NCBI RefSeq assembly: GCF_008107635.1
Contig: NZ_SDGZ01000023.1
Span: 1-64,000 of the forward strand
Direction: 5' to 3'
DNA from: Weissella muntiaci
GTDB lineage: Bacteria; Bacillota; Bacilli; Lactobacillales; Lactobacillaceae
DNA: 64,000 nt
Shown: in pieces, positions 15,677-19,470 of the stretch
Numbering within the stretch: position 1 is the stretch's first letter
How the letters are laid out: every line of letters begins with the position of its first letter
Notes under the pieces: generated by a model
The model's database searches: none
Told to the model about the DNA's origin: nothing
The model's input: only the letters and a program-made list of their open reading frames with translations
Position numbers and translations under genes: made by a program

Positions 15677-16447
15677 CTATATTGCAAACATTTTTATTAA
15701 ATCTGCTTTTAACAGATGTGCCTTCTCTGCTCCTTGCACATCAAGTTTTATCTGACCATCCTGTACCATGATCAATCGATTACCATATGCCAATGCGTCG
15801 TCAATGTCGTGCGTAATCATCAATGCGGTAAGTCGCTCTTGTTCAATTAGTTGTGCCGTTAGTTCCATAACCGTTTGACTTGTTTTCGGATCCAAGGCCG
15901 CTGTGTGTTCATCTAATAACAGCAGCTGTGGCTTTCTTATTATCGCCATCAATAACGAAAGCGCCTGACGCTGCCCTCCTGATAAATATTTCACTGGCGT
16001 ATCAATATGTGCTTCAATCCCCATATCCAAAGCCGCCAATCGACTCGCAAACTGGGTTCTCTTTTTAGTATTATCATAGCCTTTGAAGTAATCTGATAAT
16101 TGTTTATCGTCTGCTAGCACCATATTCTCATAAACGGACAATTGATCTGCTGTTCCTAATTTTGGATCTTGAAATACCCGGGCGATCCAATTAGCTCGTT
16201 TACGAATATTGGTCTTTGTAATCGTCTGCCCCAGGATCTCAATTTCGCCTTTGTCGACCTTCAAAGCACCAGCAATTGCATTGATCAATGTCGACTTACC
16301 TGCACCATTATTACCAATAATTGAGATAAACTCGCCTGGATATACTTTAAGATCAATGTTCTTTAAAATATGGCGCTGATTTACTGTACCTGGGAAAAAA
16401 ATTTTTTGAAGTCCTTTTAGTTCTAGAACAGGATTATTTTTTATCAT
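15677..16447 (-). CDS. ABC transporter ATPase (TrpZ-like)
   Basis: 256 residues. Walker A GNNGAGKST (about 43-51), the Q-loop region RVFQDPKLGTADQLSVYENM, the signature LSGGQRQAL and Walker B LLLLDEHTAALD are intact. The VFQDP/LGT block is characteristic of ATPases paired with DUF534-type binding proteins. It is the last gene of the three-gene operon, 17 bases after the permease; its ribosome binding site is weak (GGAG 12 bases away). It powers uptake of the ligand bound by the protein encoded at 17349-18338. Confidence 0.88.
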   Translation of the reverse strand: MIKNNPVLELKGLQKIFFPGTVNQRHILKNIDLKVYPGEFISIIGNNGAGKSTLINAIAGALKVDKGEIEILGQTITKTNIRKRANWIARVFQDPKLGTADQLSVYENMVLADDKQLSDYFKGYDNTKKRTQFASRLAALDMGIEAHIDTPVKYLSGGQRQALSLLMAIIRKPQLLLLDEHTAALDPKTSQTVMELTAQLIEQERLTALMITHDIDDALAYGNRLIMVQDGQIKLDVQGAEKAHLLKADLIKMFAI

Positions 16448-16464: not shown

Positions 16465-17355
16465 TCATTTCTGTTGCTTTAAATAAGCCGCCAAACGATA
16501 CTTTTGTTTCAATTTTTCTCCAATCATTGGCGCCACAATCACGACTACTAGTATCAACGCTGAGAAGATCTTCAAATCATCTGGCGATATTCCAATATTC
16601 ATTGCGCCTGCTAGAATCGTCCGATATATGATTGCCCCAATCGCCATCGAAACTAACTGCCAGACAATCTTTCGCGAAGCAACCATGATCTCACCCAGCA
16701 AAACTGATGCTAGACCGATTACAATCGTCCCAACTCCCATGTTGATATCCGCAAAACCATTGCCTTGGGCGATTAAGCCACCAGATAAAGCAATTAAACC
16801 ATTTGAAATTGCATAACCCAAGATAGTCATTCTATCAGCCCGAATCCCATTTGTAACACTCATAATTCGATTATTTCCGACTACCCGCAAGTCCAATCCC
16901 AGCCTAGTGCTGAAAAAGATATACAACAAGCCCAGCACTCCGCATACGATCGGTAGTGTCACCACGATTGTTCGGACATCATCACTACCAATTACAGGAA
17001 TAAGATCAATCAATGTTTTCTGGTCGATCAAAGCTAAGTTTGCCCGTCCCATAATGTGCATGTTAATTGAATAGAGCCCCGTTAAGGTTAAAATTCCTGC
17101 CAAAAGCGCTGGAATATGTAACTTAGTGTTTAAAATACCTGTAATAATCCCTGCAATTGTGCCTGTCAGAAAACCAAGTAATAAAGCAACCAAGACTTGT
17201 TGCCCTGACAACTGTGCGCTAATGGTAACAGCCGCACCGAGCGGAAAGCTTCCCTCTGTGGTCAAATCAGGAATATCCAAAATTCTAAAAGTAATATACA
17301 CGCCTAAAACAAGCGGTGTCCATAAAAGCCCTTGACCGATACTGTTAATTAACAT
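16465..17355 (-). CDS. ABC transporter permease (TrpY-like)
   Basis: 296 residues with about eight membrane helices of the branched-chain-type permease family (BPD_transp_2). The DIPDLTTEGSFPLGAAV motif near the N terminus is typical of permeases partnered with DUF534 binding proteins. The ATG overlaps the binding-protein gene by 7 bases, and its ribosome binding site (AGGAGG) lies within that gene's last codons, so translation is coupled. Confidence 0.9.
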   Translation of the reverse strand: MLINSIGQGLLWTPLVLGVYITFRILDIPDLTTEGSFPLGAAVTISAQLSGQQVLVALLLGFLTGTIAGIITGILNTKLHIPALLAGILTLTGLYSINMHIMGRANLALIDQKTLIDLIPVIGSDDVRTIVVTLPIVCGVLGLLYIFFSTRLGLDLRVVGNNRIMSVTNGIRADRMTILGYAISNGLIALSGGLIAQGNGFADINMGVGTIVIGLASVLLGEIMVASRKIVWQLVSMAIGAIIYRTILAGAMNIGISPDDLKIFSALILVVVIVAPMIGEKLKQKYRLAAYLKQQK

Positions 17356-18338
17356 AGCTGGCTTCCTCCTAGATTAAGGTTCCTTGATGTCACCGGCTTT
17401 AAGACCGATTTTTTCAAATTGCTTTTATTCACATATAGATGTAGTTTGTCAGACTGCTCTACTGGCATTTGCTTTACATCCTTATGGTCAAGAATAATTT
17501 GCGCCGCCATCTTAGCAGTCTGCTTACCAAGATCCTGATAATTTAGTCCGTAGGTCGCTGTACCGCCATCTTCAGCCATCTCAATTGATCCTGTCACAAC
17601 AGGAAGCTTTGCCTTTTGTGTCACCCGACCAATTGTGTGCATTGCGCTGGCCATCAAGTTATCACTAGGAACGTATAGTCCAGCAATTTGACCATCAATA
17701 CTATTCAGCGCTGATTGAATGTCGTTAGTCGATGTCACACTTACTATCTTCAATTTAAGATGGTGCTCCTTCGCATATTTTTTTGCCATATCAACCTGTA
17801 AAGTAGAATTTTCTTCTGACGAATTATAAATCACCCCCAAGGGCTTCTCAGACTTGGTTAATGTTGATAATAGCTTCAGTTGCTTATCAACCGGTGTCAA
17901 ATCACTAGTACCAGAAACATTCGTTGCCGGTTTGTTATTATCCTTTACCAACCCCGCGCGTTTTAAATCGGTCACCGCCGTTGTCAAAATCGGAATTGAT
18001 TTCGTTGTCTTAGCAATTGTTTGCGCCGAAGGCTTCGCAATTGCCAAAATTAAATCTGGTTTGCCTTTAACAATCTGACTACTCATCGACTGTAAATTAG
18101 CCTGATCTCCTTGAGCGTTTTGATAATTATACTTAACTGTCCAGTTTGAATTGTAGGCTTTAACTTCCTTGGTTAGTTCCTTTTCAAATCCATTCCTAGC
18201 AGCATCTAACGAACCATGCTGCACAACTTGTAATACGCCGATATTAATCGTCTTCTGTGCTGACGCATTTACGGTCTCGGTCAATAAGATTGCTGAAGTT
18301 GTGAGAACTCCTGCGGTAATGAGTAATGTTTTTTTCAT
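17349..18338 (-). CDS. ABC substrate-binding protein (TrpX/DUF534-like)
   Basis: 329 residues from ATG, with a Sec signal peptide (MKKTLLITAGVLTTSAILL, cut after VNASA). No lipobox cysteine follows, so membrane attachment is not evident. The mature part begins KTINIGVLQVVQHGSLDAAR and contains KPDLILAIAKPSAQTIAK and GLYVPSDNLMASAM, the ABC_sub_bind (PF04392) pattern. Streptococcal relatives take up tryptophan. The upstream leader encodes a Phe-rich peptide, which hints at phenylalanine or another aromatic amino acid here. The substrate is inferred. Confidence 0.85.
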   Translation of the reverse strand: MKKTLLITAGVLTTSAILLTETVNASAQKTINIGVLQVVQHGSLDAARNGFEKELTKEVKAYNSNWTVKYNYQNAQGDQANLQSMSSQIVKGKPDLILAIAKPSAQTIAKTTKSIPILTTAVTDLKRAGLVKDNNKPATNVSGTSDLTPVDKQLKLLSTLTKSEKPLGVIYNSSEENSTLQVDMAKKYAKEHHLKLKIVSVTSTNDIQSALNSIDGQIAGLYVPSDNLMASAMHTIGRVTQKAKLPVVTGSIEMAEDGGTATYGLNYQDLGKQTAKMAAQIILDHKDVKQMPVEQSDKLHLYVNKSNLKKSVLKPVTSRNLNLGGSQLC

Positions 18339-18361
18339 AATTTTGCTCCATTTTTTAAAAT

Positions 18362-18397
18362 AAAAAAAACCAGCTAGAGACATAGTCATCTAACTGG
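18362..18397 (-). terminator. Leader terminator of the TrpXYZ-type operon
   Basis: CCAGTTAGA (18397-18389) pairs with TCTAGCTGG (18378-18370), followed by eight U residues, 25 bases before the first gene. An upstream copy of the complementary strand (18413-18421) can compete for the 5' arm, so this is probably an attenuator. Confidence 0.75.
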
Positions 18398-18527
18398 TTT
18401 TGGGCCCTCAAACAGTTAGATAATTACCGCATCTAACTGGCTCTTTTCGCGTTGAAAAGCATTAGCCTTTTTTAGATACGAACACTTAGTGTTAAGCGTT
18501 CGTATCCTGTTTTAGAATACAAACGCT
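18388..18527 (-). promoter_or_regulatory. Alternative-hairpin attenuator leader
   Basis: Three segments can pair in two ways: segment 1 (18527-18515) with segment 2 (18506-18493), or segment 2 with segment 3 (18488-18475, 14 bp with G-U, loop ACAC). A further hairpin occupies 18467-18439. Then CCAGTTAGAT (18440-18431) pairs with ATCTAACTG (18421-18413), which can instead pair with the terminator arm (18397-18388). Segment 1 overlaps the stop codon of the leader peptide, the expected place for ribosome control. Confidence 0.65.
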
Positions 18528-18588
18528 ATCTAAAGAAAAAGCTAAAGCCAAATTCATTATTCAGTTGTGAGTAATTGGTATGTGTCAT
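18526..18588 (-). CDS. Phe-rich leader peptide
   Basis: A 20-codon open frame with an excellent GAGGGG site seven bases upstream. It encodes a peptide ending NNEFGFSFFFR; five of its last eight residues are phenylalanine. The stop codon lies inside the first arm of the downstream hairpins. Ribosome stalling at the Phe codons when charged tRNA-Phe is scarce would alter the hairpin choice. The pattern matches amino-acid leader peptides such as PheL of enterobacteria. No T-box sequence is present. Confidence 0.7.
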   Translation of the reverse strand: MTHTNYSQLNNEFGFSFFFR

Positions 18589-18690
18589 TTCATAACCCCT
18601 CTACAAATGATTAAAATTAATTAAACCTTAAAGCGTCTAAAATGTCAACTTTCTTTTAAAACTCATTAAATTTTAATTCTACAAACAGCA

Positions 18691-18719
18691 AAAAACTTCC
18701 AGCAAAAAATACTGGAAGT
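18691..18719 (-). terminator. Terminator of the SDR gene
   Basis: CTTCCAG and CTGGAAG form a stem followed by a minus-strand T6. Confidence 0.75.
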
Positions 18720-18735
18720 CAGTTTAATCAAAGCT

Positions 18736-19470
18736 TTAGCTATCTTGACGAGTTGGTGCAATATCAATCTCACGAATGGTAACATCTTGTGGCATATCGT
18801 AAATAAACTTAACTACTTCAGCCACATGCTTCGGATCTAGCACAACACCACCCATTGCATTCTTCCACTCTTGATAACTCTCAAGCGCACCTTCGTCAGT
18901 TACATGCGTCAACAATTCAGTCTCCGCAGCCCCTGGTGCAACTACAGCAACACGCACATTTTTGCCTGACACTTCCTCACGGACAGTCTCAGTTAAGCCA
19001 TGCACACCATACTTACTTGCCACATATGCGGCGTGATTTGTGAAGGTCTTCTTTCCTGCAAGTGAGGACATATTAATGATTGTTCCACTTTGGCGCTCGA
19101 TCATCTCATTCAAAACAATTTGCATACCGTTCAAGACACCCATCACATTGGTGTCTAACATGGTCTGCCATTCCTTAGGATCTTGATTTTGTATATTACC
19201 AAGTAACATCAATCCTGCATTATTTACTAAAAGATCAACCGGACCAAACTTTGCGACTGCCTTATTAACAGCTGTTTCAAATTGTTCCTTATCGGTTACA
19301 TCAACTTCCTCAACTAATACATTTGAAAAGTCTAATGGAAGCTCCTTAATCTTTTGAGTACGACGACTTAGTAGCAACTCTGGAAATCCAGCTTCGTTAA
19401 AAATCTTTGCAATTTCAGCACCAAATCCAGAACTTGCTCCTGTGATAACAATTAATGGCTTATTTGTCAT
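18736..19470 (-). CDS. Short-chain dehydrogenase/reductase
   Basis: 244 residues of classical SDR type. The NAD(P)-binding GASSGFG is at residues 11-17, NNAG near 85-88, a catalytic serine in IINMSSLAGK and YVASK as the catalytic Tyr-Lys pair, followed by VAPGAAETEL. It is closest to YdfG-like serine/3-hydroxy acid dehydrogenases. It is divergent from a MerR regulator, and its promoter has the 19-bp spacer of MerR-activated genes, so it is probably induced by an aldehyde or oxidant. Exact substrate unknown. Confidence 0.9.
   Translation of the reverse strand: MTNKPLIVITGASSGFGAEIAKIFNEAGFPELLLSRRTQKIKELPLDFSNVLVEEVDVTDKEQFETAVNKAVAKFGPVDLLVNNAGLMLLGNIQNQDPKEWQTMLDTNVMGVLNGMQIVLNEMIERQSGTIINMSSLAGKKTFTNHAAYVASKYGVHGLTETVREEVSGKNVRVAVVAPGAAETELLTHVTDEGALESYQEWKNAMGGVVLDPKHVAEVVKFIYDMPQDVTIREIDIAPTRQDS

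Follow-up and report, generated by a model that had tools for sequence, protein, structure and literature searches.

A putative ribosome-mediated attenuator with aromatic leader codons ahead of an ABC importer operon of Weissella muntiaci, and its relatives in Lactobacillales

Introduction

In the trp and phe attenuators of Escherichia coli, a short ORF with regulatory codons is followed by mutually exclusive hairpins and by a terminator that precedes the operon. The aromatic regulons of low-GC Gram-positive bacteria were reportedly treated by Panina and coworkers in 2003. Leader-peptide attenuation itself is classical, and in Firmicutes it is known for Leu and His, i.e., in the Leu-rich attenuator of Staphylococcus aureus ilv (PMC5794164) and, for His, in leaders from Bacillus and others (PMC2965389; PMC9413887), which resemble the leader described here but concern other amino acids. 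The His genes of Lactobacillales are described as preceded by T-boxes and not by leaders (PMC9413887). The trpXYZ genes of Streptococcus suis form a related ABC operon that is also controlled by its leader, but this leader is a T-box reading tRNA-Trp (PMC9382623), an element not found at our locus. A Phe-codon uORF has likewise been suggested upstream of aroF, a DAHP synthase gene, in Acholeplasma (uORFC-13-1), with 24 representatives from Acholeplasma and environmental sequences only (PMC8632094).

Two RNA families stand closest to the leader analyzed here. RF02863 (Enterococcus sRNA 2410) is filed as a small RNA gene and derives from sRNA_2410 of Enterococcus faecium, a 195-base RNA with two forms that are discrete on Northern blots (Sinel et al., 2017; PMC5593968). 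Neither a leader nor attenuation is mentioned for it in the available text of that report, nor does the available part of a transcript map published later for E. faecium and E. faecalis name sRNA_2410 (PMC7724050). For RF04312 (trpB motif), the accessible sections of Narunsky et al. (2024; PMC11109978) left open whether it is a riboswitch, a protein-binding element or a classic attenuator. Our search of the open-access literature gave no account of a Phe/Tyr leader from Lactobacillales.

Results

The leader and its RNA elements

The window, i.e., the whole stretch of 64,000 nucleotides of contig NZ_SDGZ01000023.1 that was analyzed, carries on its minus strand the following features.

18620..18648, minus: promoter-like TTGACA (18648-18643), 17-base spacer and TTTAAT (18625-18620), recognized by eye
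18596..18602, minus: Shine-Dalgarno sequence AGAGGGG, with the ATG of the leader 7 bases on (sequence)
18526..18588, minus: leader ORF, MTHTNYSQLNNEFGFSFFFR and a stop codon at 18528-18526 (ORF kept in 104 of 106 aligned leaders)
18527..18546, minus: segment 0, codons FSFFFR; partner 0' when no ribosome covers it (alignment, folding)
18515..18527, minus: segment 1, overlapping the leader stop codon; partner 2 (alignment, folding)
18495..18507, minus: segment 2; partner 1 or 3 (alignment, folding)
18475..18487, minus: segment 3, overlapping 0'; partner 2 (alignment, folding)
18462..18477, minus: segment 0'; partner 0 (off) or a (on) (alignment, folding)
18431..18442, minus: segment a; partner b (off) or 0' (on) (alignment, folding)
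18413..18421, minus: segment b; partner a (off) or c (antiterminator) (alignment, folding)
18389..18398, minus: segment c, 5' arm of the terminator; partner d or b (repeat, folding, terminator search)
18362..18378, minus: segment d, the terminator's 3' arm (18378-18369), together with U8 (18369-18362) (folding, terminator search, sequence)
17349..18338, minus: substrate-binding protein, PF04392, with Ser251 and Tyr267 as residues of the Phe/Tyr type (profile match, alignment)
16465..17355, minus: permease, PF02653 (profile match)
15677..16447, minus: ABC ATPase, PF00005 (profile match)

The TTTAAT hexamer was missed by the promoter scan, which accepts a second hexamer only if its second base is A. 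Further upstream, the dehydrogenase gene ends in an intrinsic terminator of its own (18720-18694, minus), which sets it apart from the aromatic leader.

The initial annotation, made from the sequence alone, had described a 20-residue leader peptide with five Phe among its last eight residues, a good ribosome binding site, a stop codon overlapping the first of three alternatively pairing segments, and a twice-repeated sequence with a single complement, forming terminator and antiterminator hairpins before U8. All these elements are present. The ORF at 18588-18526 encodes a predicted peptide of 20 residues ending in FGFSFFFR, AGAGGGG (18602-18596) stands seven bases ahead of its ATG, and the stop codon (18528-18526) overlaps segment 1 (18527-18515) in an array that can form either 1:2 or 2:3. 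The repeat CCAGTTAGAT occurs at 18440-18431 and 18397-18388 and its complement ATCTAACTG once, at 18421-18413 (all on the minus strand), and the terminator hairpin, of -17.4 kcal/mol, leads into U8. The leader as a whole folds at -84.8 kcal/mol, against -50.0 kcal/mol (sd 4.5) for shuffled sequences, i.e., a z-score of -7.7 that none of 200 shuffles equaled. The Phe codons also pair directly with 18477-18462 (segment 0'), a helix that was absent from the initial annotation.

The leader thus combines an ORF and a Shine-Dalgarno sequence, regulatory codons near the stop that match the operon, and exclusive pairings that include a terminator. We consider it probable, at close to nine chances in ten, that it acts as a ribosome-mediated transcription attenuator sensing charged tRNA-Phe and, in relatives, also tRNA-Tyr. 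With ample charged tRNA, the ribosome would reach the stop codon and leave, and 0' would be taken by 0:0', or kept engaged by 2:3 while the ribosome is at the stop; in this off state, a would pair with b and c with d, and transcription would stop at U8. When charged tRNA is scarce, the ribosome would stall on the Phe codons and cover segment 0, so that 1 pairs with 2 and 0' is freed; in the resulting on state, 0' would pair with a, the freed b would pair with c, the terminator would be pre-empted and the importer would be made. The proposed mechanism is therefore a relay of three switches (0:0' or 0':a; a:b or b:c; c:d), two steps beyond a plain terminator/antiterminator pair. Compared with trp and phe of E. 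coli, the sequences are different, a ribosome at the stop codon would here favor 2:3, and there are two further pairings (0':a and b:c).

No Rfam family reached its gathering score across the entire 64,000-nt window, and a permissive scan of 18300-18760 gave no match to the T-box model even at E values up to 1, in keeping with the initial observation that no T-box is present; none was found either in the 19 related loci checked. A metabolite riboswitch or a T-box, with the short ORF as an incidental feature, could be considered because a riboswitch, with an attenuator as the alternative, was what Narunsky et al. suggested for the trpB motif, a related RNA (PMC11109978). Besides the missing T-boxes, two observations make such an element highly improbable: helix 0 is made of the codons of an ORF that is aromatic in one frame only, and Trp codons accompany transporters of the Trp type (see below).

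Conservation of the leader peptide

Among the first 18 homologous loci, 15 have a short ORF with an aromatic-rich end, mostly FYFSYFR followed by the stop codon. We then considered an alignment of 106 leaders (A3) in which the ORF was picked by ATG and Shine-Dalgarno sequence only, ignoring aromatic residues. An ORF was found in 104 of the 106, and in 104 of 104 it was the aromatic frame, these counts, like the others given here, being from related sequences and not from independent events. The last 10 codons contain on average 5.0 aromatic residues, versus 1.0 in the other two frames (106 leaders). The aromatic share at codons 2 to 8 before the stop is 0.80, 0.84, 0.11, 0.87, 0.95, 0.63 and 0.35, and beyond codon 10 it is at most 0.04. 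Three of the 106 leaders (L078, L265 and L100) have fewer than four aromatic residues in the last ten codons. Phe and Tyr swap at the same positions and Trp is rare. The sensing of Phe proposed initially is too narrow as to the amino acid, since in the relatives these positions are filled by Phe and Tyr codons alike.

A second conserved feature lies further upstream. The LN of a QLN-like motif is present in 72 of 99 unique leaders, 10-13 codons ahead of the stop, and QLN is common to the Phe/Tyr leaders and to the Trp-codon leaders described below, both of the WQSW (15 of 30 Trp leaders) and of the WW form. It could point to a sensor of the TnaC kind, in which the nascent peptide (QLN..FYFSYFR) arrests the ribosome on a free amino acid or another signal. 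The Leu is encoded by all six of its codons, as if the residue and not the bases were kept, and the sharing of QLN with Trp leaders agrees with such a role. The Asn, in turn, is AAT in 71 of the 72 cases, which points to the bases, and the distance from QLN to the stop varies. Moreover, Phe and Tyr interchange freely and the codon type tracks the transporter type, as a codon sensor predicts. We therefore regard arrest by the nascent chain as unlikely, though less so than the other alternatives weighed here, and favor ribosome stalling on aromatic codons.

Covariation of the alternative pairings

Helices 0:0', 1:2 and a:b are 94.0% paired across the leaders, and 32 of their 34 pairs show two-sided changes (15.4 in shuffles), in an alignment that was fitted to that structure; slid controls are only 27.8-45.7% paired. 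The exclusive helix 0':a, which lies outside the model, is 89.7% paired and shows two-sided changes in 9 of 10 pairs (4.5 in shuffles, 1 of 500 reaching this level; 20-60% paired in slid controls). For the other exclusive helix, 2:3, the paired share is 91.6% and there are 27 two-sided cells versus 9.0 in shuffles, and two of its five shuffle measures are unexceptional (103/500 and 140/500). Covariation thus appears strong for 0:0', 1:2 and a:b, good for 0':a and modest for 2:3. A terminator is found at most 190 bases past segment b in 101 of 105 leaders (11 of 105 when shuffled), and in 80 leaders b is a better partner for the 5' arm of this terminator than are 20 shuffles of b. The initial annotation had made its reading depend on the conservation of codons and pairings among relatives; this test was run, and both are kept.

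Folding with ribosome positions

When the window leader was folded as a transcript extending to c, a ribosome with its A-site on codons 13-17 (from Phe to the second Phe of FFF) let b:c form but not a:b. With the A-site on the first Phe codons and the transcript to b or c, 0':a formed. Without a ribosome, or with a ribosome at the stop, transcripts to b or c gave 0:0' or 2:3 with a:b ahead, although with the transcript to c the off state barely leads (a:b 4.7 versus b:c 3.6 without a ribosome; 4.4 versus 3.7 at the stop). In the full transcript, a long hairpin of a:d and b:c outdoes c:d in every ribosome state, and thus the choice between on and off must be kinetic, i.e., made during transcription.

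The same survey was carried out on 105 of the 106 leaders, leaving out L080, which is without segment b. With the transcript to b, the leaders leaning to the antiterminator number 4 of 105 without a ribosome, 11 with a ribosome at the stop, 27-45 with the A-site 3-8 codons before the stop (35-45 at 4-8 codons), 24 at 9 codons and 5-14 beyond. With the transcript to c, the corresponding figures are 29, 29, 38-49, 31 (9 codons) and 22-28 (beyond), so that 22-29 of 105 already lean to the antiterminator in the baseline without a stalled ribosome. The crossover peaks at 45/105 (to b) and 49/105 (to c), and over half of the leaders never cross at equilibrium. A stall on the final Phe codon, which is 2 codons ahead of the stop, shifts little (14/105), yet this codon is conserved. 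The stall positions predicted to be effective broadly match the aromatic codons, and equilibrium folding backs attenuation only in part.

Distribution and relation to RF02863

The sole convincing match in the permissive Rfam scan of 18300-18760 was RF02863 (18353-18545, model positions 1-196; 49.9 bits, E 2.8e-7). The window copy stays under the gathering score of 61 bits (49.9 bits; 36.6 bits in the order-wide scan), although by sequence it is clearly homologous to RF02863, and Rfam assigns three leaders of related loci to this family over the cut-off. We conclude that the RNA of Sinel et al. (PMC5593968) and the window leader are the same RNA. The start of the RF02863 model falls within the leader ORF (the match starts from 18545, the ORF being 18588-18526), so what is annotated as an sRNA may be a leader that was terminated and trimmed, and discrete RNAs such as those seen on the Northern blots of E. 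faecium (PMC5593968) are what a terminated leader would give.

RF02863 matches 84 of 148 genomes of the order (including, below threshold, that of the window), 37 of them over the cut-off, and 0 of 14 controls. A model of our own (R1) matches 167 of 397 genomes of the family, in 21 of 40 genera. Contrary to the initial annotation, such attenuation would therefore not be unusual in this group. Outside the order, the leader is found ahead of a gene for a sodium:neurotransmitter-type symporter in Clostridium, Eubacterium and one further genome (L129, L144, L175 and L265).

From the 115 places matched by RF02863, 80 were fetched, leaving out those already seen and same-genus repeats, and the first downstream ORF was classed by BLAST against eight reference proteins. 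It encodes a TrpX-type binding protein in 49 loci and AroE (shikimate dehydrogenase) in 24; the others have DAHP synthase (4), a family-3 amino-acid binding protein (2) or AroC (chorismate synthase; 1). Each of the 80 leaders thus adjoins, on its own strand, genes of the shikimate pathway or of aromatic or other amino-acid transport. An exact DNA pattern gave a separate set of 80 named contigs; here the first gene codes for the binding protein (72 contigs), DAHP synthase (1) or the sodium:neurotransmitter-type symporter (3, the Clostridium and Eubacterium cases), and in 4 the contig ends before it. Several genomes carry tandem leaders, one ahead of each binding protein, and among the R1 matches there is a leader ahead of an MFS-chorismate mutase fusion followed by AroC. 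In the genus and family of the window, an aminotransferase and/or a D-2-hydroxyacid dehydrogenase is encoded behind the leader at L262-L264, L266, L268 and L270 (protein families checked on L263 only). At L279, a leader ending in YYYFYFFKECL precedes a PTS_EIIC_2 protein.

These neighborhoods bear on whether the RNA is a free-standing, trans-acting small RNA, as its Rfam type ("Gene; sRNA") and the discrete transcripts of E. faecium (PMC5593968) would have it. The location of 80 out of 80 loci just before same-strand aromatic or amino-acid genes, the terminator in 101 of 105 leaders and a conserved ORF that the Rfam model cuts through leave this only a very slight chance, although the terminated RNA may have a second role.

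Transporter specificity and host metabolism

Homologues of the binding protein were found in 55 of 60 related genomes. The initial annotation had named the transporter TrpXYZ-type, and an ABC operon of that kind is indeed present, but the name misleads: the window binding protein scores 287.1 bits against a cut-off of 390 for the TrpX equivalog NF041285. The binding proteins CD0873 (Tyr), VC_1101 (Phe) and SP1069 (Trp) are described as differing at two positions, Gln-284 of SP1069 admitting Trp and a Tyr at that place blocking it (PMC6816091). The alignment places Tyr267 of the window protein at the position of Gln-284, where Trp-type proteins have Gln. Tyr267, the TrpX score below the cut-off and the mixed Phe/Tyr codons of the relatives make uptake of Phe/Tyr the better guess, and the importer of the window probably carries Phe and/or Tyr.

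The residue at the Trp-blocking position agrees with the leader. It is Tyr or Phe in 70 of 71 leader-linked binding proteins after removal of identical or contained sequences (74 of 75 before), the exception (L100) combining Gln with a leader that has a Trp codon; in a second, named set, 66 of 66 leader-linked proteins have the Phe/Tyr-type residue. Where no Phe/Tyr leader lies immediately ahead of the gene, the protein has Gln in 15 of 16 cases, and the remaining one (L014) is the second gene behind a Phe/Tyr leader. Since the codon type of the leader agrees with the residue of the binding protein, leaders can be used to annotate transporter substrates.

Chorismate synthase (PF01264) was not found in the window genome, which is 96.5% complete, and was detected in 14 of 14 controls. 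This organism, a likely aromatic auxotroph, may therefore depend on aromatic uptake, which fits a Phe/Tyr importer.

No close orthologue of the binding protein was found in 27 genomes of the same genus (best full-length match 37%), and this, together with the RF02863 score under the cut-off, might suggest that the window copy is decayed or recently acquired and without regulatory effect. However, every part of the leader is intact, its helices are near-perfect and its terminator is strong, and we consider a non-functional copy very unlikely. Attenuation of the importer operon remains our preferred reading, and the core of the initial proposal, i.e., a leader peptide read by the ribosome, competing terminator and antiterminator, no T-box and an ABC operon, stood up to all tests run, with equilibrium folding in its favor only in part.

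Trp-codon sister leaders

RF04312 matches 87 of the 148 genomes of the order (35 over the cut-off) and has no match in the window's genome; at least 11 of its places are also matches of RF02863. By script, a Trp-codon leader ORF, typically ending in WQSWRR, was found in 29 of 30 RF04312 loci (L313-L342), and the thirtieth (L339) has a W ORF according to an earlier script with narrower limits on the stop position. The binding proteins recognized behind RF04312 have the Trp-type Gln in 24 of 24 cases. The window genome itself contains a Gln-type paralogue (L282, contig C2, upstream of 151090, minus) whose leader ends in NSWWRR, and WW leaders are present at ten of the loci from its genus and family. 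The Trp-type paralogues of the window genome (L282) and of relatives (L020-L029) are preceded by leaders with WWRR or WWRS ends and not by T-boxes. A scan for the GWWR pattern gave matches in 72 of 151 genomes and was discarded, the pattern being too loose to signify leaders.

RF04312 (PMC11109978) thus shares with the window leader the layout and the presence of a leader ORF and differs by its Trp codons (..WQSWRR) and its Trp-type protein, and from these sequences it looks like the Trp-codon sister of RF02863. Among the options considered by Narunsky et al., our data favor the classic attenuator.

Discussion

We think it likely, with somewhat less assurance than for the attenuator of the window, that a single ancestral attenuator has been codon-swapped, giving RF02863 with Phe/Tyr codons ahead of Phe/Tyr importers, shikimate operons and genes for aromatic aminotransferase/2-hydroxyacid dehydrogenase, and RF04312 together with the WW form, with Trp codons, ahead of Trp importers. 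The QLN stretch that they share may add a nascent-chain or RNA element to the codon sensor.

With this proposal, an RNA family that had been catalogued only as a small RNA gains a mechanism and a regulon, and the riboswitch proposed for the trpB motif gains a concrete alternative. The distribution suggests that, for aromatic amino acids, lactic acid bacteria and streptococci commonly have leaders read by the ribosome, beside T-boxes. If true, the genes for aromatic amino acids in Lactobacillales would have in such leaders a major alternative to the T-box, two orphan Rfam families would turn out to be attenuators of a single kind, and the substrate of a transporter could be predicted from its leader codons.
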